Assembly: GCA_944321435.1 (NCBI GenBank)
Contig: CALULH010000004.1
Coordinates: 1-64,000, forward strand
Source: an uncultured Coriobacteriaceae bacterium
Lineage (GTDB): Bacteria; Actinomycetota; Coriobacteriia; Coriobacteriales; Coriobacteriaceae
DNA length: 64,000 nucleotides
Reading direction: 5' to 3'
How positions within the stretch are numbered: the stretch's first letter is position 1; every line of letters starts with the position of its first letter. The notes beneath the pieces are model-generated. The model saw nothing but the letters and a program-made list of their open reading frames with translations. It ran no database searches and was not told the origin of the DNA. Below are positions 32,203 to 44,804 of this stretch, piece by piece. Made by a program: the position numbers and the translations under genes.

Positions 32203-32685
32203 GTGCGAGAGGACATGGACTACGAGGAAGCGGCGCGCAAGCTGATCGTGTACTCTCAGGGGCTGGCCAAGGGCTCGCTGGGCACGGCGCGCTCGCTCGC
32301 GGTGGGCGAGGCTCCCGTCCTGCAGTACCTCTCGGACAAGGGCGAGGAGATGAACCCGTCCGCCCTGGCCGACCAGCTGGGCTACACGCGCCCGCGCATG
32401 ACGCGCATCTTGGACTCGCTCGTGTCCAAGGGGTACGTGTCGCGCCGCAACGACGAGAAGGACCGCCGCAAGGTGCTGGTCTCCGCCACGCCGGCGGGCA
32501 TCGAGCACGCCAAGCAGCAGGGCGACAACAGCGTCGAGGCCGTGGCCAAGCAGCTGAGCGCGCTGGGCTCCACCAACGCCGCGGAGCTCGTGAGCGTGCT
32601 GGAGAAGGCGTACAGCATCACTTACAACCGCGAGGACGTGGTCATCCCGGCCAAGAAGCGCCGCAAGAAGCGCCTAGGCCAGTAA
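32203..32685 (+). CDS. MarR-family transcriptional regulator
   Basis: This is a 160-residue winged-helix protein. MNPSALADQLGYTRPRMTRI is the recognition-helix region, and SLVSKGYVSRRNDEKDRRKV is the wing with the DxR signature of MarR proteins. The C-terminus is strongly basic (PAKKRRKKRLGQ). I prefer GTG at 32203 because AAAGGA lies seven bases upstream; the ATG at 32215 is too close to its only purine-rich stretch. It precedes the fructan PTS locus, and its own promoter carries the same ACCGTT word as that locus. It is therefore a candidate regulator of it. Confidence 0.85.
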   Translation: MREDMDYEEAARKLIVYSQGLAKGSLGTARSLAVGEAPVLQYLSDKGEEMNPSALADQLGYTRPRMTRILDSLVSKGYVSRRNDEKDRRKVLVSATPAGIEHAKQQGDNSVEAVAKQLSALGSTNAAELVSVLEKAYSITYNREDVVIPAKKRRKKRLGQ

Positions 32686-33418: not shown

Positions 33419-33850
33419 ATGCGCTATCTGGTTCTCGTGAGCCACGGCACCTTGGCGCAGGGCGTCCACAGCGTGCTCAAGATGCTCGCGGGGGAGAACC
33501 CGCAGATCCTGAGCGCCAGCCTGGAGGACGGCATGAGCGCCGACCAGTTCGCGGACCGCTTCCGCGCCGCCATCGAGCCCATCGCCGACGCCGACGACGT
33601 CCTGCTGCTGGGCGACATCGTGGGCGGCTCGCCGCTCACCAACGCCATGAACGTGCTGCAGGAGCGCGGGCTTCTCGCCCACGCGGCGGTCTTCGGCGGC
33701 ATGGGCCTGCCCATGGCCATGACGGCCGCCATGCAGCTCCAGAACGACAACCTCGACAGCCTCAAGCAGATGATGCTCCAGGAGGCACGCGACGGCGCCC
33801 GCGAGATCGTCGTCGCGGCGGACGACGACGAGGACGAGGAAGACCTCTAG
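33419..33850 (+). CDS. levD: PTS mannose/fructose-family EIIA component
   Basis: This 143-residue cytoplasmic EIIA accepts phosphate from HPr. The phosphorylated residue is His9 in LVLVSHGTLAQG. DVLLLGDIVGGSPLTNAMNV and FGGMGLPMAM are family motifs. The C-terminus ends in a run of about ten Asp/Glu residues, and EIIC of the same operon has a similar tail. GGAGAAAGGA precedes the ATG. Gene order EIIA-EIIB-EIIC-EIID followed by a fructanase matches Bacillus levDEFG-sacC, which is why the lev name is used; transport of mannose or another hexose remains possible. Confidence 0.88.
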   Translation: MRYLVLVSHGTLAQGVHSVLKMLAGENPQILSASLEDGMSADQFADRFRAAIEPIADADDVLLLGDIVGGSPLTNAMNVLQERGLLAHAAVFGGMGLPMAMTAAMQLQNDNLDSLKQMMLQEARDGAREIVVAADDDEDEEDL

Positions 33851-34015
33851 CCACGGCAATCGGCGCCGGCGGCGGTCCACACACACCTCCCGCTTCGCCG
33901 CCGACGCTCCTTGCAACCGTCCGCACCTCGTGCTTCTCGCACGCTATCCCCGCGCTTCAGACAGGCGCGGGACCGCAGGTAAACGGCGCCGCCGCGCCGA
34001 GAGAAAGGAACCGCA

Positions 34016-34513
34016 ATGGCAGTCAGCTTCGTTCGCATCGACGACCGCATGATTCACGGTCAGACCGTCACCCGCTGGGCGGTGGAGTACCCCTGCGACG
34101 GCATCATCGCCGTCAACGACGCCGCCGCGTCCAACCCGGTGCTCAAGAGCGCCTACAAGTCCGCCGCGCCCGACAAGAAGACCTTCGTCTGGACCATGGA
34201 GCACTTCAAGGAGAAGGCCCAGACCGTGCGCGACTCCAAGACCCGCTACTTCCTGATCACCAAGAACCCCGTGGACATGGCCGAGATCCTGGTGAGCTTC
34301 GGCTTCGTGCCGGACGACGTCAAGACCGTCATCGTGGGCCCCTGCAACGACCGACCCGGCACCAAGAAAATCGGCAACAACCAGTCCATCACCCAGGAGG
34401 AGGCCGAAGCCCTGGAGGCTATCTCAAAGAAGGGCTATACCGTGGACTTCCGCCTGATCCCCGACAAGGAGACCGGCACCTGGGACAAGTTCCGCGGCAT
34501 GTTCGGCTTCTAA
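34016..34513 (+). CDS. levE: PTS mannose/fructose-family EIIB component
   Basis: This 165-residue cytoplasmic EIIB takes phosphate from EIIA and passes it to the incoming sugar. The active residue is His14 in VRIDDRMIHGQTVTRW, the signature of the family. VIVGPCNDRPGTKKI and the C-terminal FRLIPDKETGTWDK fit the fold. GAGAGAAAGGAACC precedes the ATG. The 165-base gap from EIIA holds only a copy of the GCGAGAAG-type motif in inverse orientation (33932) and no visible promoter. Confidence 0.9.
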   Translation: MAVSFVRIDDRMIHGQTVTRWAVEYPCDGIIAVNDAAASNPVLKSAYKSAAPDKKTFVWTMEHFKEKAQTVRDSKTRYFLITKNPVDMAEILVSFGFVPDDVKTVIVGPCNDRPGTKKIGNNQSITQEEAEALEAISKKGYTVDFRLIPDKETGTWDKFRGMFGF

Positions 34514-34630
34514 TCTTCGGTTCCCCGCTCGCCCGGTTCCGCGGCCGTTGCGCGGCGGCGGCAGGACCGGGGCGAGAAGGACAACAGCGCGCCCTGAGAG
34601 GCAGGGCACGGATCGTGAAAGGTGGTTAGC

Positions 34631-35503
34631 ATGACAGTCAACATTATCCAAGCGGCGCTGCTTGGTCTGTTTGCCTGCCTGGCGTCCATGCCGGGCTTGG
34701 GAGGCACGTCCATCGGCAACTACACCCTGGGCCGCCCGCTCGTCGCCGGCCTGGTGGTGGGCCTCATCCTGGGCAACGTGACGCTGGGCATCATCGTGGG
34801 CACTGCCATCCAGGTGGTCTACATCGCGCTGGTGACTCCCGGCGGAACCGTCTCCGCCGACGTCCGCGCCGCGTGCTACATCGGCATCCCGCTGGCCATG
34901 ATCGCCATCATGAACAACCCGGCGCTCGCGGCCGACCCGACCGGCTCCGAGGCGGCCGCCACCGCCACCGCGCTGGGCGCCACCTGCGGCACCTTGGGCG
35001 CCATCCTGTTCTACGGCACCTCAACCATCAACCTGGCCTGGCAGGCCATGGGCTGGAAGTGGCTCGAGAAGGGCGACACGCACAAGCTGTACCTGGTCGA
35101 CATGGTGCTGCCGTGGATCTCGCACATCATCTGCTCGTTCATCCCGACCTTCCTGCTGGTCTACATCGGCGGCGACGCTGTGAGCAACGTGCTCAACAGC
35201 CTGCCCATGGACAGCATCCCCATGAAGACGCTCTTCGCCGTGGGCTCGCTGCTTCCCTGCGTCGGTATCGCCATCCTGCTGAAGCAGGTTATCACCAAGG
35301 CCACCGACTGGCTGACGTTCTTCTTCGGCTTCACGCTCGCGGCGGTCATGGGCTGCAACCTCATCGCCTGCTCCGCCATCGCGTGCTTCTTCGCGCTCAT
35401 CACCTTCGAGCTCTCCACGATCAAGACCAAGCTGGACAGCGTCAGGACCTCAGGCGCGGCCCTTACCGCAGGCGACGACGATGAGGAAGAGGAGGACATC
35501 TAA
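34631..35503 (+). CDS. levF: PTS mannose/fructose-family EIIC component
   Basis: This 290-residue integral membrane protein forms the sugar channel with EIID. Repeated hydrophobic segments include AALLGLFACLASMPGLGG, LVAGLVVGLILGNVTLGII and VGTAIQVVYIALVTPGGTVS, the last being the family signature. The C-terminus is acidic (AGDDDEEEEDI) like that of EIIA. The ATG at 34631 has AAAGGTGG at a suitable distance; a GTG nine bases earlier would overlap that site. EIID starts three bases after its stop. Confidence 0.92.
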   Translation: MTVNIIQAALLGLFACLASMPGLGGTSIGNYTLGRPLVAGLVVGLILGNVTLGIIVGTAIQVVYIALVTPGGTVSADVRAACYIGIPLAMIAIMNNPALAADPTGSEAAATATALGATCGTLGAILFYGTSTINLAWQAMGWKWLEKGDTHKLYLVDMVLPWISHIICSFIPTFLLVYIGGDAVSNVLNSLPMDSIPMKTLFAVGSLLPCVGIAILLKQVITKATDWLTFFFGFTLAAVMGCNLIACSAIACFFALITFELSTIKTKLDSVRTSGAALTAGDDDEEEEDI

Positions 35504-35505
35504 CG

Positions 35506-36339
35506 ATGGCTGACTACGCTAAGAAAGTTTCCAAGAAGGCACTCGCCAAGTCCTTCCGCAACTGGTACTACGGCAACCTGACCTGCTTCTCGCAGGAGCA
35601 CATGCAGACCTTCGGCTACCTGGTCTCCATGTTGCCCGTCATCGAGGACCTGTACGACAAGAAGGAGGACCAGACCCGCGCCCTCCAGACCTACTCCGCG
35701 TTCTTCAACACCGAGCCGCAGATCGGCACCATGATCGTCGGCGTCACGGTCGGCCTCGAGGAGGCCCGCGCCAACGGCGAGGCCATCGACGACGACACCA
35801 TCAACGGCATCCGCGCCGGCCTGATGGGCCCGCTGGCCGGCATCGGCGACTCGCTCATCGTCGGCACCCTGATCCCGATCCTGCTCGGCATCGCCATGGG
35901 CCTGTCCGAGGGCGGCAGCCCGCTCGGCGCCATCTTCTACATCGTGGTGTGGAACCTGCTGGCGTACTTCGGCATGCGCTTCGCCTACTACCGCGGCTAC
36001 GACCTGGGCGGCGCGGCGGTCGAGGCCCTGGTGGGCCCCAGCGCCACCGCTCTGCGCGAGGCCATCACCACGGTCGGCACCATGGTCATCGGCGGCGTGG
36101 CCGCGACCTGGGTGTCCATCTCCACGGCTCTGACGCTCCCCGGCGGCGGCACCCTGCAGGGCACGCTCGACGGCATCTACCCCAAGCTGCTCCCGCTGAT
36201 CTTCACCGTGTTCTGCTGGTGGCTCATGGCCAAGAAGAAGATGAGCCCCATCATCACGATGCTCATCCTGCTGGTCATCGCGTTCCTGGGCGCCTGCTGC
36301 GGCTTCTTCGGCGCTGCGACCATCGCCTCGGTGGCGTAA
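35506..36339 (+). CDS. levG: PTS mannose/fructose-family EIID component
   Basis: This 277-residue membrane protein is the partner of EIIC. WYYGNLTCFSQEHMQTFGY near the N-terminus, then FFNTEPQIGTMIVGVTVGLE and GIRAGLMGPLAGIGDSLIVG, are classic EIID motifs. C-terminal hydrophobic helices (PLIFTVFCWWLMAKKK, ITMLILLVIAFLGACCGFF) follow. The three-base gap from EIIC indicates coupled translation. Confidence 0.93.
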   Translation: MADYAKKVSKKALAKSFRNWYYGNLTCFSQEHMQTFGYLVSMLPVIEDLYDKKEDQTRALQTYSAFFNTEPQIGTMIVGVTVGLEEARANGEAIDDDTINGIRAGLMGPLAGIGDSLIVGTLIPILLGIAMGLSEGGSPLGAIFYIVVWNLLAYFGMRFAYYRGYDLGGAAVEALVGPSATALREAITTVGTMVIGGVAATWVSISTALTLPGGGTLQGTLDGIYPKLLPLIFTVFCWWLMAKKKMSPIITMLILLVIAFLGACCGFFGAATIASVA

Positions 36340-36803: not shown

Positions 36804-36821
36804 ACACAGGGAGTGGCTGAC

Positions 36822-37652
36822 ATGCAAGATGTAAACGGCAACGAGATCAAGATCGTGTTCACCGACGTGGACGGCACGCTGCTGGACGCCGAGCACCGGG
36901 TGATCCCGGAGGCGTGTGTCACCGTCCAACGGCTGGCGCAGCTGGGGATTCCGCTGGTGCTGGTGTCCGCGCGCATGCCGGAGGGTCTGACCACCATCCA
37001 GAGTGCAATGGGCTTCACCGGCCCGTTGGTGTGCTACAGCGGCGCCTACGTGCAGGACGAGCGCGGTGCCAAGCTCCTGAGCCACGTCATCGACATCGAC
37101 ACCGCCTGCGAGATCAAGCAGTTCCTGGACCGCGAGCTGCCCGGACTCACGTGCTCGGAGTACGGCTTCCACACCTGGATCTGCGACGACGACTGGGACC
37201 CGCGCATCCAGAACGAGGAGCGCATCACCTCGCTCAAGGCCGAGCGCGCGGCTCTGCGCGACGCGTTCAGCCACGTGGGCATCCACAAGTTCCTGCTCAT
37301 GGGCGAGCCCGCGGAGATAGAGGCGGCCGAGAAGCGCATTGCCGCGGCATACCCGCAGCTTGCCGTGGTGCGGTCGTCGCCCATCCTCTGCGAGGTCATG
37401 AGCGGCGCGGCGTCCAAGGCCGAGGGCGTGCGGGTCGTGTGCCGGCACTTCGGCGTGGACCCCGCCGAGGCCGTGGCGTTCGGCGACGGGCGCAACGACA
37501 TGGACATGCTCGCCGCCGTGCCGGAGAGCTACGCCATGGCCAACGCCCCGGACGAGGTCAAGCGGGCCGCGGCGCACGTGACGCGCTTCCCCAATGCGGA
37601 GAACGGCCTGGCGCGCACGCTCGAGGAGCTGCTCCCCGCTCTGCGGGCGTAG
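36822..37652 (+). CDS. HAD-superfamily (Cof-type) phosphatase
   Basis: This 276-residue enzyme has the HAD motifs in order: FTDVDGTLLDAEH (nucleophile aspartate), VLVSARMPEG (motif II), KAEGVRVVC (motif III lysine) and AFGDGRNDMDML (motif IV). The cap between residues 80 and 190 is of the Cof/C2 type. These enzymes dephosphorylate sugar phosphates or related compounds. In this operon it may limit sugar-phosphate stress during fructan use, which is inference. The ATG at 36822 has CAGGGAG 9 bases upstream. Its amber stop is followed in the same frame by the start-less fructanase. Confidence 0.9.
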   Translation: MQDVNGNEIKIVFTDVDGTLLDAEHRVIPEACVTVQRLAQLGIPLVLVSARMPEGLTTIQSAMGFTGPLVCYSGAYVQDERGAKLLSHVIDIDTACEIKQFLDRELPGLTCSEYGFHTWICDDDWDPRIQNEERITSLKAERAALRDAFSHVGIHKFLLMGEPAEIEAAEKRIAAAYPQLAVVRSSPILCEVMSGAASKAEGVRVVCRHFGVDPAEAVAFGDGRNDMDMLAAVPESYAMANAPDEVKRAAAHVTRFPNAENGLARTLEELLPALRA

Positions 37653-37697
37653 CGGCGCGGCGGGCGCATCGGTGCCACCGTCGCCTCGCTCGCGGTC

Positions 37698-40600
37698 GTG
37701 GCCGGCCTGTCGCTGCCGTTGCCCGCCTTGGCGGACACGGCGGACGACGCCGCGGCGGTCCAGGCGGCGGCGCAGGCTGTCACCGGGGAGGTGGACGCCC
37801 CGGAGACGCAGGCGGCGGATACCGCTGCGGGGGAGGATGCCCAGGTGGCAGAGGACGAGAGCGCCGCGCAGGCGCCCGATCAGGCCGAGGGCGCCGCGAC
37901 CGAGGGCACGGAGGGCGCCGTGCAGCTGACGGATTTCGCGACCATGGGGAGCACGGCCAGCGTAACCTGCGAGGACGGTGTTATCACCATCGAGGGGACG
38001 GGCGGCGACCACTTCGCGCGCCCGGCGGAGCCCCTCTTTGCCAAGAGCTTCGTCTTCGAGGCGGATGCCAAGGCGGACGTCTCCGCGGCGCTTGCCATCG
38101 TGAGCATGGAGAACGGCGCCGGCAGCCCGTGGTACGCCTTCAACTTCAACAACGACGAGAGCAACGCCCTGCGGTCCCGCTTCTTCGGCGGCGACAACAA
38201 CGAGCGCGTGACCTTCAGCCTGGAGGAGCTCGACGGCGCCGGTATCGACACGCACGCTGAGGTGCATCTGAAGATCGACATGAAGTCCAACGGCGACTAC
38301 ACGCTGACCATCGCCGACGCGGCCGATCAGGGCAGGGCTCTGTCCAAGAGTGCGCATCTTGACGGCTGGAACGGCGGCTACCTGGCGCTTCTCGCCTTCA
38401 ACTCCGGTGCCACGTTCCGCAACGTGAGCTACGTGGACAACACCCAGGCGGATACGCCGGCCGACGCCACCGTTGACTGGGGCGACGGCAAGGTGGCCTC
38501 CAACTTCATCACCGACCCGGCAGGGCAGTTCGCCGTCAACGGCGGCGGCATCTCCGTGGAGGACGGCTCCGTGGTGATGGACTCCACCGGCTTGGGCGAC
38601 CTGTACGCCGTGGTGGCCGATGACGAGCGGAGCTACGGTGACATGGTGTACTCCGCCAAGGTCACGTTCGCCGAGCCCACCGGCTGCGCTTCCCTGGTGT
38701 TCCACGCCAATGGGGATTTCAGCGACAACAAGTCCTACGTGGCCAACATCGATGCCGCAACCGGCGCATGCCGCATCTTCAAGAACGGCGACAGCAAGAT
38801 CACCTCGTCCGACCTGGTGCAGTCCAAGACCGTCGCGCTGTCCGCGGACAACACCTACGAGCTCGCGGTGACGCAGATCGGCAAGCACGTCGTCTTCACC
38901 GTCAACGGCGAGGTCGTGGGCAACACCGGCGACTACACCGCAAACAGCTCCGTCACCGAGGAGGTCAACGCCCACCACGGCCAGGGCGACGCGCTTCTGA
39001 GCGGTTACTGCGGCCTGCTGACCTACAACGCCAAGGCGAGCTACACCGACATCAACGTGACTCCCATCACCGATGAGAACTCCATGCAGCTCTCCTCGCT
39101 GAAGCTCCGCGACGACGGCACGGACATGAACTTCGCCTTCGCCGAGAACCAGTACCTGTACGTGGGCTACGTGTTCAACGAGATCGCGTCGACCGGCATT
39201 GAGTTCACGGCGGTCGATCCCGACGCCACGGTGACCGTGACCGACGCCAACGGCAGCGTGTGCGACCCGTCCAACCTGGCGCTGCGCTACGACGGCGAGC
39301 CCAGCGTGTACGACATGAACTCCGGCCTCACCCCGTACACGGTCACGGTCGAGAACCCCGGCGCGCCCGGCGCCAAGACGCTCTACCAGCTGCGTCTGTT
39401 CCGCGAGAATCCCTCCGACACGTATTACAACGAGACCTGGCGCGACCAGTACCACTTCAGCGTCAAGAACGGCTGGGGCAACGATCCGTGCGGCATGGTC
39501 AAGATCGGCGATACCTGGCACTTCTTCTACCAGGCCTACACCGACGCCGACTGGGGTCCCATGCACTGGGGCCATGCCACCAGCACCGACTTGGTCCATT
39601 GGACCGAGCAGCCCCTGGCGCTCTACCCGGACGAGTACGGCGCGATGTTCTCGGGCTGCGGCGTTGCCGCCGACCATGAGACCGCCCCGACGATCTTCGA
39701 CGAGGGCGAGAGCGGCATGGTGTTCATGGTGACCGCCAACGGCCGCAACGGTGTCGACGACCAGCGCCTGTGCCTTGCCTACAGCAAGGACGGCGGCCAG
39801 ACGTTCCAGAAGCAGGAGATGTACGTCGATGCCGACGGCAACAACGTGGGCGGCGTTATTCTCGACTACCAACAGGGCGATGAGGACCCTCTGCACAATG
39901 CCGCCTTCCGCGATCCCAAGATCTTCCGCTACGATGGCCATTGGTTCATGATCGTGGCCGGCGGCCCGGTGCGCATCTACAAGTCCGACGACCTGATCGG
40001 CTGGACCTGCGAGCAGACGCGCGACGATATCAACACCGAGTGCCCCGACCTGTACCCGGTGAAGGCCGAGGACGGCACGGTCAAGTGGGTCCTGTCCCGC
40101 GGCGGCATCACGTACCGTATCGGCACGTTCGGCCTGATGGACAACGGGCATTACGGATTCGTCGAGGACAGCGCCACTGACTATCCGATGAACTTCGGCC
40201 TGGATCACTACGCTGCCATGACGTTCTTCCTGCAGGGCGAGGACTTCGGCACCGAGGACGCGGTGAACGCGCCCGACGACCTGATCTCCGCCAACTGGAT
40301 GAACAACTGGGCGTACAACCGCATCGTCCAGACCCAGACCGGCAACTACACCTTCAACGGCGCCTACACGCTCATGACGCGCCTGTCGCTGGTGAAGACG
40401 GGCGAGAGCGACGACAGCTACCGCTTGGCGCAGACGCCGCTCACCGAGTACGAGAGCCTGCGCGATGAGGACAATGCCATCAAGGTGACCGACGCGCTCC
40501 TTGGCGACGGCTCGGAGAACCCGTTCGCGGGCTTTGCCGGGACCTCGTACGAGATGGTGGTCAACGCGAAGCCGCAGGAGGGCACGCCGGTCGTGAACCT

Positions 40601-41498
40601 GGACCTGCGCGTGGGCGGCAACCAGTACACGCGCCTGTCCTACGACTTCTCGACGCAGAAGCTCTCGCTTGACCGCTCGCACTCCGGTGTGAACCTGAAC
40701 GACCAGTTCGCGGCAGTCCAGAGCTCTGACGCGGTCCCCAACGAGGACGGCAGCGTGGACCTGCACATTTACGTCGATCGCATGAGCGTCGAGGTGTACG
40801 CGCAGGATGACACGGTGAACGGCACCGCGCAGATCTTCCCGGTGCTGTCGAGCGACGGGCTGTCCGCCACGGCGGAGAACGGCACCGCGGTGCTGAACGC
40901 CACGGTGTACCCGCTGGAGAGCATCTGGAACACGGCGGCCGAGGAGCCCGGCGACGACGTTGAGCAGCCGAGCAAGGATGCGCTCCAGGCCGCGGTCGAC
41001 GAGGCGGCCGGCTTGGCTGAGGACGGCTACGCGGCGGATTCCTGGCAGGCGCTCCAAGATGCGCTGGCCGCCTCCCAGGCCGTGCTGGACGACCCGGACG
41101 CCACGGCCGAGGATATTGCCGCCGCCGAGCAGGCGCTTGCGGAAGCGGTTGCCGGATTGCAGAAGGCCGACCAGGGCGACCAGGGCCAGGGTGGCGACCA
41201 GGGCGACGACCAGCAAGGCGGCAACCAGGGTCAGGGCGGCAACGACGGTCAGACAGGTGACGACGGCCAGGCCGGCACCGGCTCTGACCAGGGCGCAAGC
41301 GGGTCTGACAACGGCTCCGACAACGGATCCGACGCCAGCGGCTCCAACGGTTCCGAGGGGTCCCCGGGCGGCTCCACTTCCCAGGGCGACTTGCCGACCA
41401 CGGGCGACGCGGCGGCCATCGCGGCCGGCGTCTCCGCGCTTGCCGGCGCGGGCGCGCTGACCGGCGCGGCGGTTCTGCGCCGCCGCAAGCGCCGCTAA
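37698..41498 (+). CDS. Sortase-anchored GH32 fructanase (levanase/inulinase-like), abnormal start
   Basis: This is a very large cell-wall fructan hydrolase. All three GH32 catalytic signatures are present: GWGNDPCGMVK (nucleophile Asp, near residue 590), FRDPKIF (Asp stabiliser) and ECPDLYPV (acid/base Glu). Before the catalytic part are two LamG-like beta-sandwich modules and a cadherin-like stretch. After it are the GH32 C-terminal sandwich, a FIVAR-like helical module, a Gly/Gln/Asp repeat linker, LPTTG, a hydrophobic helix and RRRKRR. The signal peptide is readable from 37653 (RRGGRIGATVASLAVVAGLS then LPLPALAD), but no ATG, GTG or TTG precedes it. The only in-frame start is GTG at 37698, inside the hydrophobic core. 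The HAD amber stop directly precedes the frame. It is last in the PTS operon, like sacC after levDEFG. Confidence 0.85.
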   Translation: MAGLSLPLPALADTADDAAAVQAAAQAVTGEVDAPETQAADTAAGEDAQVAEDESAAQAPDQAEGAATEGTEGAVQLTDFATMGSTASVTCEDGVITIEGTGGDHFARPAEPLFAKSFVFEADAKADVSAALAIVSMENGAGSPWYAFNFNNDESNALRSRFFGGDNNERVTFSLEELDGAGIDTHAEVHLKIDMKSNGDYTLTIADAADQGRALSKSAHLDGWNGGYLALLAFNSGATFRNVSYVDNTQADTPADATVDWGDGKVASNFITDPAGQFAVNGGGISVEDGSVVMDSTGLGDLYAVVADDERSYGDMVYSAKVTFAEPTGCASLVFHANGDFSDNKSYVANIDAATGACRIFKNGDSKITSSDLVQSKTVALSADNTYELAVTQIGKHVVFTVNGEVVGNTGDYTANSSVTEEVNAHHGQGDALLSGYCGLLTYNAKASYTDINVTPITDENSMQLSSLKLRDDGTDMNFAFAENQYLYVGYVFNEIASTGIEFTAVDPDATVTVTDANGSVCDPSNLALRYDGEPSVYDMNSGLTPYTVTVENPGAPGAKTLYQLRLFRENPSDTYYNETWRDQYHFSVKNGWGNDPCGMVKIGDTWHFFYQAYTDADWGPMHWGHATSTDLVHWTEQPLALYPDEYGAMFSGCGVAADHETAPTIFDEGESGMVFMVTANGRNGVDDQRLCLAYSKDGGQTFQKQEMYVDADGNNVGGVILDYQQGDEDPLHNAAFRDPKIFRYDGHWFMIVAGGPVRIYKSDDLIGWTCEQTRDDINTECPDLYPVKAEDGTVKWVLSRGGITYRIGTFGLMDNGHYGFVEDSATDYPMNFGLDHYAAMTFFLQGEDFGTEDAVNAPDDLISANWMNNWAYNRIVQTQTGNYTFNGAYTLMTRLSLVKTGESDDSYRLAQTPLTEYESLRDEDNAIKVTDALLGDGSENPFAGFAGTSYEMVVNAKPQEGTPVVNLDLRVGGNQYTRLSYDFSTQKLSLDRSHSGVNLNDQFAAVQSSDAVPNEDGSVDLHIYVDRMSVEVYAQDDTVNGTAQIFPVLSSDGLSATAENGTAVLNATVYPLESIWNTAAEEPGDDVEQPSKDALQAAVDEAAGLAEDGYAADSWQALQDALAASQAVLDDPDATAEDIAAAEQALAEAVAGLQKADQGDQGQGGDQGDDQQGGNQGQGGNDGQTGDDGQAGTGSDQGASGSDNGSDNGSDASGSNGSEGSPGGSTSQGDLPTTGDAAAIAAGVSALAGAGALTGAAVLRRRKRR

Positions 41499-42311: not shown

Positions 42312-44804
42312 CTAGCAGACCGCGACCTCGCGCAGGGAGAAGGCGCCGTCGCGGTACTCCAGCATGCAGAGCGCGCCGTCGGGGATGGCGCGCGGGGTCT
42401 CGCCGGCGTGCCCGGGCAGGGCGGCGATTACTGAGGCCACGGCGTCGGGGTCGGCCACGGCCAGGACGTCGCGCGGGTCGGCGGCATCCATGCGGCGCGT
42501 CAGGGTTTTGAGCATCTGCGCGCCGTCTGCCTTGCGGCGGTCCAGCGCGTCGGTGCAGGTGTAGTCCATCTCGGGCTCGTTGAGCTCCAGCGCGGCGGCC
42601 TTGAGCGTGTCGATGGCGCGCGGCGCCGGCGCGCACAGGAAGTCGCCGACGCGCGCGTGGCGGAACCGCAGCGTACGACCGGCGCGATGCGCCTGGTTGA
42701 GGCCGTAGCCGTTGATGGTCGTGGCGCACCAGTCCTGGATGCGCGGCGGCGTCTGCCCGACGCCGGACGCGCTGGCCAGCAGGTAGAGCACGCGCGGGGC
42801 AGGTTGCTCGGGCGCCGGCTGCGCGGGCGCGGCCTCCGGTTGCCCGGGCGCCGCCTCGGGCTGCGCTGCCGCGTTCTTCTCGTCTTGCACAGCAGGGTCG
42901 TCTGCGGGGGAGGCGGCGGCCGCAGCCTGGTTAGCGGCGGCAGCTTGCCCAACGGCAGCAGAAGCGGTGCCCTCCAGATCTTCCGTGCGAGAAGCGCCCG
43001 TTTCGGCATCCTGGCCGCCCGCGGTTGTTGCGCCCGTGCCATCAGCGGCAGTCTGCGCGGTGTTCTTCTCGTCCGAGGTATCGTTGGTGGCCGTAGCAGC
43101 TCCGGCGCTCTCCGCCGCAGCGCTCTCCGCGCCCGCCGCGCTGTTCTCGCTCGCATCCTCCGCGCCGGGTCGCGTCCAGCCTGCGGGCACCTCGCGCAGC
43201 CACACCACGGAGAGCGGCGGGACCTCAAGGCTGCCGGTCAGCTGGCGCGCCGCGGCGCCCGCGGCGCCTTCGGCCAGCATGTCCTCGAACCAGCAGTTCA
43301 AGGTGCCGTCGTAGAAGGTGTGCGGAGCGTCCTCGGCGTTGACGGCAACCAGCACGCGCTCGCGCGGGTGCTCCCCGTCCTCCGCGGCAACGCGCTCAAA
43401 GAGCAGCTGCTTGTTCTGAATGTTCACGTTGTGGTAATCGCCGTACGCCAGCGCACGCGACCCGGCGCGCACCTCGGCCATGCGGGCGATCAGCGCGGTC
43501 AGCGCGTCGGGGCCGTCCGACATGAGGGACCCCAGGTCCAGATGGGCGATCTGGTTGGCGAGGGCGCCCAGGGGCGCAGCGGGATCCGTGGTCCCCGCAA
43601 GGCGCGCGATCTGCTGCTTTTCTCGCACAAGCGCCGAGCGCTCCGGAGCGGCCAGCTCCGGCCGGATGAGCTTGTCGGCCTCGTAGCCCTGGCCCTTCTC
43701 GCCCGTCTGGCCCCATTCGCTGCCGTAGTACAGGCAGGGGATGCCGGGCATGCCGAGCAGCAGGCCGTAGGCGGGCACCAAGTGGCGTTTCTCGGTGAGG
43801 ATGCTGGCAAGGCGGCTGACGTCGTGGTTGTCGGTGAAGGTCAGAAGATGCTTGCCGCGGTAGATGCACCATTGCTCGGGGCCGAACTGGCGGTTGAGCG
43901 AATGGGCGATCTCGAACAGGTTCATGCTGTTGAAGCTCGAGTACAGGCCCTTGTAGCACTCGTAGTTGGTGCAGGAGTGCAGCATCTGGTCGTTCATGAT
44001 GAGGTTGTAGTCGCCGTGCAGCGTCTCGCCCAGCAGGAAGAACGTGCGGTCGGAGAGCAGCGCCTGCGCTTCGACCAGGTCCTGGGCGGGGGCGCCTTGC
44101 CGCGCGCGCTCCTCGGCGCGGGCTACGGCCTCCTGCGTGACCGCGGGTGCGGGCTCGGCGGAGAGCTCGTTGGCGAGCTCGCGCAGGCGGCGCAGGAAGT
44201 CGTGGTCCAGGCTGTAGGCCACGTCCAGGCGCAGGCCGTCGACGCCCAGCTCGCGGCGCCACATGCGCACGGAGTCCAGCAGGTAGTCGACCACGGCGGG
44301 GTTCTTGAGGTTGAGCTTCACCAGGTCCTGGTTGCCCTCCCAGCCCTCGTACCAGAAGCCGTCGCCAAAGTGCGTGTCGCCGTCGAAGCTGATGTGGAAC
44401 CAGTCCTTGTAGGGGCTGTCCCACTTGCGCTCGCGCACGTCGCGGAACGCCCAGAACTCGCGGCCCACGTGGTTGAACACGGCGTCGAGCAAGATGCGCA
44501 CGCCGTGGGCGTGGAGCTCCTTGACGATCTCGACGAAGTCCTCGTTGGTGCCCAGGCGGCAGTCGATCTGGCGCAGGTCGCGGGTATCGTAGCCGTGCCA
44601 GCTGGACGCGAAGACCGGGTTCAGGATGATGGACCCCACTCCCAGCTCGCGCAGGTAGGGTGCCCAAGCGGCCAGTTTGTTGATGCGATGGTTGGCGCGC
44701 TCGGCTTCCTCGGCGTCCGCGTCGCCCACGGCGGGGGCGTATTGGGGTGCCCCGACGAGCCCCAGGGGGTAAAACTGGTAAAACGTGCTCTCATAGGCCC
44801 ACAT
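42312..44804 (-). CDS. GH13 alpha-amylase-family enzyme fused to a degenerate histidine-phosphatase domain
   Basis: Residues 1 to about 555 are a GH13 (beta/alpha)8 enzyme. ILLDAVFNHVG is conserved region I. GLRLDVAYSLD holds the nucleophile aspartate, FFLLGETLHGD the acid/base glutamate, and LLTFTDNHDVSR the third carboxylate. A maltodextrin or alpha-glucan is the likely substrate, and there is no signal peptide, so it acts in the cytoplasm. An Ala/Glu/Gln/Pro-rich linker of about 110 residues (about 555-665) follows. The last 165 residues match the histidine-phosphatase (phosphoglycerate mutase) outline VLYL...QDWCATTINGYGLNQAH...APAPRAIDTLKAA. The catalytic RHG is replaced by ASA and the late SHG is absent, so this domain should be inactive. 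AGGAGAAAGGGG precedes the ATG. Confidence 0.88.
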   Translation of the reverse strand: MWAYESTFYQFYPLGLVGAPQYAPAVGDADAEEAERANHRINKLAAWAPYLRELGVGSIILNPVFASSWHGYDTRDLRQIDCRLGTNEDFVEIVKELHAHGVRILLDAVFNHVGREFWAFRDVRERKWDSPYKDWFHISFDGDTHFGDGFWYEGWEGNQDLVKLNLKNPAVVDYLLDSVRMWRRELGVDGLRLDVAYSLDHDFLRRLRELANELSAEPAPAVTQEAVARAEERARQGAPAQDLVEAQALLSDRTFFLLGETLHGDYNLIMNDQMLHSCTNYECYKGLYSSFNSMNLFEIAHSLNRQFGPEQWCIYRGKHLLTFTDNHDVSRLASILTEKRHLVPAYGLLLGMPGIPCLYYGSEWGQTGEKGQGYEADKLIRPELAAPERSALVREKQQIARLAGTTDPAAPLGALANQIAHLDLGSLMSDGPDALTALIARMAEVRAGSRALAYGDYHNVNIQNKQLLFERVAAEDGEHPRERVLVAVNAEDAPHTFYDGTLNCWFEDMLAEGAAGAAARQLTGSLEVPPLSVVWLREVPAGWTRPGAEDASENSAAGAESAAAESAGAATATNDTSDEKNTAQTAADGTGATTAGGQDAETGASRTEDLEGTASAAVGQAAAANQAAAAASPADDPAVQDEKNAAAQPEAAPGQPEAAPAQPAPEQPAPRVLYLLASASGVGQTPPRIQDWCATTINGYGLNQAHRAGRTLRFRHARVGDFLCAPAPRAIDTLKAAALELNEPEMDYTCTDALDRRKADGAQMLKTLTRRMDAADPRDVLAVADPDAVASVIAALPGHAGETPRAIPDGALCMLEYRDGAFSLREVAVC

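Follow-up and report, generated by a model that had tools for sequence, protein, structure and literature searches.

A fructanase frame without an initiator in a fos/lev-type fructan operon of an uncultured Coriobacteriaceae bacterium: most likely the loss of a start codon, or else a gap in the assembly

How is a long fructanase frame to be expressed when it runs, with no start codon of its own, directly out of the stop codon of the gene in front of it? This question is raised by a stretch of 64,000 nt from an uncultured Coriobacteriaceae bacterium (GCA_944321435.1, contig CALULH010000004.1, positions 1 to 64,000, forward strand), here called the window, in which the gene of a HAD-family sugar phosphatase is joined in this way to the frame of a secreted GH32 protein, a fructanase of the cell surface that degrades plant fructans. 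The peculiarity is most likely an ordinary kind of gene damage, and a new way to initiate a protein is disfavoured. The features on which the argument draws are collected in Table 1, where G002 denotes the closest congener that carries the HAD gene.

Table 1. Features of the fructan operon and of the HAD/fructanase joint, with positions in the window.
Feature	Positions	Strand	Remarks
MarR-family regulator gene	32215-32685	+	upstream of the PTS genes
PTS IIA, IIB, IIC and IID genes, mannose/fructose/sorbose family	33419-36339	+	operon members
Small ORF, 111 residues	36468-36803	+	between IID and HAD; same place as fosX; no Pfam family
HAD-IIB (Cof-type) sugar phosphatase gene	36813-37652	+	start GTG 36813 or ATG 36822; 87% orthologue in G002
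Amber stop TAG of HAD	37650-37652	+	DNA identity with G002 ends at 37651
Open frame of the GH32 fructanase, no initiator	37653-41498	+	signal peptide, N-terminal modules, GH32N/C, FIVAR-like, LPTTG sortase signal
Signal peptide without Met	37653-37733	+	27 residues up to and including the final Ala of the ALA cleavage motif
ATC	37668-37670	+	sole table-11 start ahead of GTG 37698; background-level Shine-Dalgarno
GTG	37698-37700	+	first common start codon; inside hydrophobic core; no Shine-Dalgarno; 45 nt past stop
Alpha-amylase-family gene, convergent	42312-44804	-	far side of the fructanase

As the earlier note had described, the frame continues straight on from the amber stop of HAD, in phase with that gene; it is open from stop to stop over 1,281 codons and closes with a TAA at 41496-41498. 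The codons after the TAG read CGG CGC GGC GGG CGC ATC GGT GCC ACC GTC GCC TCG CTC GCG GTC GTG, so that, again in agreement with the note, neither ATG, GTG nor TTG occurs before the GTG at 37698. ATC is a listed start codon of table 11, and the one at 37668 is the only codon of that list in the interval. The GTG does lie within the hydrophobic core of the signal peptide, as had been claimed, and a protein begun there would keep a 12-residue stump ahead of the cleavage site. Third-position GC amounts to 0.93 for HAD and 0.91 for the fructanase, and the junction is strongly G+C-rich. Direct repeats at the breakpoint were looked for at the joint and none was found, while promoter and terminator scans gave results at chance level.

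Both GH32 domains are recognized by Pfam in the fructanase frame, the N-terminal one with 163 bits (E-value 1.6e-47, cut-off 22.1) and the C-terminal one with 81.5 bits (9e-23, cut-off 21.9). The catalytic motifs of GH32 enzymes, namely NDP with the catalytic Asp, RDP and EC, are found at positions 610, 753 and 795 (here TECP), and the LPTTG at 1247 is accompanied by the hydrophobic stretch and basic tail (RRRKRR) of an LPXTG-type C-terminus; the sortase-anchor profile PF00746 reaches 16 bits, under its cut-off of 20. The complete signal peptide with an initiator that a sortase-anchored surface protein requires is absent. Across the catalytic part, the best solved relatives are the GH32 exo-inulinases 8i12 and 1y4w, and the NDP, RDP and ECP positions of 8i12 align with those of the window fructanase; their chains comprise 518-523 residues, whereas the window protein is extended by long modules of its own and by a wall-anchor signal. 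The earlier note had spoken of an intact body of 1,270 residues with all its motifs, which holds for the motifs and the integrity, the open frame being 1,281 codons long. Its argument that this integrity speaks against long inactivity is weak, because only 316 of 11,529 single-base changes in the frame (2.7%) would make a stop codon, and the genomes searched yielded no relative close enough for testing relaxed selection; the intact body suggests that the loss of the start was not ancient, and no more than that.

The surrounding genes form an ordinary fos/lev-type operon, with mannose-family PTS genes adjoining the gene of an anchored GH32 fructanase. The MarR-family gene is a candidate regulator of the operon, and several relatives retain the 111-residue ORF at this place, after IID and ahead of the HAD or fructanase gene. 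The amylase-family protein on the far side contains a long Ala/Glu/Thr-rich stretch past its catalytic part; only the amylase domain was called in it by Pfam, and we take its C-terminal part to resemble a histidine-phosphatase domain. In the published description of the fosRABCDXE operon of Lacticaseibacillus paracasei, a regulator, a PTS, a small gene and an anchored fructan beta-fructosidase stand together (PMC8517115), and the window shares with it a regulator, the mannose-family PTS IIA/B/C/D, the small extra gene and the wall-anchored GH32 protein. Compared with that description, it differs in the HAD gene that separates the fructanase from the small gene, in the MarR-like type of the nearby regulator, and in the fructanase without a start (PMC8517115). 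Judged by titles and opening abstract lines, none of the papers listed on translational coupling and on fos operons deals with this gene.

Comparison with related genomes places the joint more precisely. The HAD protein of G002 is 87% identical and terminates at the same residue, in its case with a TAA, and its gene is followed by the convergent amylase gene with no fructanase between, so that, judged by gene order, the window fructanase is an extra gene relative to G002; DNA identity between the two loci stops at the second base of the HAD stop codon. The operons of G001 and G003 (same genus) and of G051 (same family) share with the window the PTS, the small ORF and a secreted GH32 protein whose signal peptide closely resembles that of the window and whose C-terminus is of the LPXTG type. 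In these three, however, the fructanase comes right after the small ORF and lies upstream of another HAD gene (34-36% identical); it starts with an ATG plus GGAGG where the window copy has no start.

Fructanase relatives were sought in the four genomes of the genus, in 65 of the family and in a sample of 395 from the order. Those of G001 and G003 are 52-53% identical to the window protein across the best stretch, and no fructanase was found at this match strength in G002; in all, the gene occurs in four of the 65 family genomes (the bacterium itself, G001, G003 and G051) and in 11 of the 395, its own genome included. Each of the ten order-level (Coriobacteriia) relatives, whose start codons were picked by eye, opens with an ATG whose Shine-Dalgarno duplex scores -7.4 to -11.6 kcal/mol, compared with -5.5 at the ATC and +1.2 at the GTG of the window, which bears out the earlier remark that a clear ribosome-binding site is wanting. 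Given this regularity, the missing start is more than chance, and a start present in 10/10 relatives and absent from the window is one mark of a start-loss pseudogene. A distant Oscillospiraceae fructanase frame, left out of the ten relatives scored, has an ATG behind a GGAGG-like stretch.

The signal peptides indicate how much may be missing. When that of G001 (MNGRRIAWGTAATLAIVAGLSLPAPVLA) is set against that of the window (RRGGRIGATVASLAVVAGLSLPLPALA), the match (E 3.4e-4) begins at window residue 3, with G3 facing G3; the match with G003 (E 0.003) begins at residue 4, and the length to the cleavage motif is 27 residues in the window and 28-30 from the Met in the three relatives measured. 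From these corresponding positions and lengths, only the initiator, about 0-2 codons and the ribosome-binding site would appear to be missing. The proposal that a deletion had taken away both the start and an intergenic spacer is thus backed by the relatives as regards the start, while a long spacer need not have been lost.

We consider it, on balance, somewhat probable that the window carries a start-loss allele, whether a small deletion struck the point where HAD and fructanase meet or the incoming gene was joined to HAD in 5'-truncated form, and that the exported enzyme is lost or reduced to a trace. Either the joint that placed the fructanase behind HAD or a later deletion would have taken away the ribosome-binding site together with the initiator and about 0-2 codons, leaving the HAD stop codon fused to the signal-peptide frame. 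One plausible path would lead through a stop/start overlap at the joint, followed by the loss of a few bases; among adjacent prokaryotic genes, overlaps of -4 and -1 nt are reported to be the most frequent arrangements (PMC10666635). Ribosomes finishing HAD would find no standard start codon nearby, and the exported, wall-anchored fructanase would therefore not be made, or only in traces. Counted against start loss are the lack of direct repeats at the breakpoint and the intact 1,281-codon frame, which is what a gene still in use, or one only recently damaged, would display. The same intact body suits an assembly or consensus error, in which a real start exists and the draft lacks anything from a few to some tens of bases of a GC-rich stretch; we regard this as a real possibility that falls short of being probable. 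The assembly is a draft of 26 contigs (94.45% complete), the junction has the composition noted above, and the joint has no second witness among the genomes and contigs searched: no sister strain or second copy was found in the bacterium's own genome, in the four genomes of the genus, in the 65 of the family or in the order sample of 395, and a search of genome contigs and viral contigs gave one distant Oscillospiraceae in the former and none in the latter. With no sister strain for comparison, the sequence fits a deletion, a truncated insertion and an assembly error alike. Against an error, the neighbouring genes are in frame and intact when compared with G002, and the 5' flank of the G001 fructanase and the 3' flank of the G002 HAD gene find only background elsewhere in the assembly, besides HAD itself, which gives no sign of a misjoin within the limits that divergence sets to such a search. 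Furthermore, at least one in-frame start codon is shared in 41/41 window/G002 frame pairs, and in 39/41 a Shine-Dalgarno of -4.2 or better accompanies a start among the first three that are shared, a lenient count in which some pairs are overlapping shadow frames; the assembly is therefore not generally start-poor. The neighbourhood does not look error-prone, but it may contain a single local error.

The readings in which the frame is translated as it stands fare less well. Initiation at the ATC, suggested in the earlier note and here pictured as coupled to the end of HAD translation 15 nt before it, with weak production of the exported enzyme, is improbable; the narrower picture, in which ribosomes ending HAD reinitiate at the AUC with little Shine-Dalgarno help and yield a low-level surface fructanase tied to HAD translation, is more doubtful still. 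The codon would keep the hydrophobic core. In E. coli pairs, 40-80% of reinitiation is lost at +14 nt, so a start at 15 nt lies inside the distance where some remains (PMC10666635), and the rescue of a frame-shifted gene through a non-natural start has been reported (PMC6397469). However, its duplex is matched or bettered at 990 of 5,339 internal in-frame positions and is therefore background; its product would have no positive residue ahead of the core, where the three relatives compared have 2-3; and none of the ten relatives uses such a non-standard start. Little product would be expected from this unlikely start. Were it real, it would be a natural case of a stop-coupled start at a non-standard codon. 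It is very improbable that the GTG, though the first common start codon in the frame, begins a cytoplasmic, non-exported fructanase: reinitiation falls steeply with distance, three E. coli pairs having shown 80-90% loss or abolition already at +38 nt against the +45 of this codon (PMC10666635), its duplex is unfavourable, and the signal-peptide stump that it would leave, like the LPTTG and C-terminal hydrophobic stretch that indicate a surface protein, runs counter to such a product. Read-through of the TAG into a HAD-fructanase fusion, the remaining suggestion of the earlier note, has the identical frame on both sides of the codon in its favour and is nonetheless scarcely credible. TAG is an ordinary stop in the window, ending 18 of 36 genes (after five of 41 frames that looked short, overlapping or shadow frames had been dropped) and 19 of 38 by an independent filter; the fusion would bury the signal peptide internally, and the HAD protein of G002 ends at the same residue with another stop codon. 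A pattern search, which is not a complete tRNA census, found no CUA tRNA, its one candidate hit being a tRNA-Arg. As a separate observation, the stop codon used least in this GC-rich genome is TGA, with 2/38 window frames and 4/44 in 80 kb of G002.

With its start bases lost, this fructanase copy is probably silent or misassembled. Two further GH32 matches are present in the bacterium's own genome (G000:C5:64100-64372 and G000:C3:74499-74711), in frames of 613 and 602 codons; these are possibly intracellular sucrose/FOS hydrolases, which could partly cover for a silent fructanase. An automatic gene caller may move the start to the GTG at 37698 and thus annotate a protein that has no export signal. 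Should the lesion be real, the strain keeps the transport half of its fructan operon while the surface enzyme is probably missing, and gene content alone would therefore wrongly predict growth on inulin or levan.
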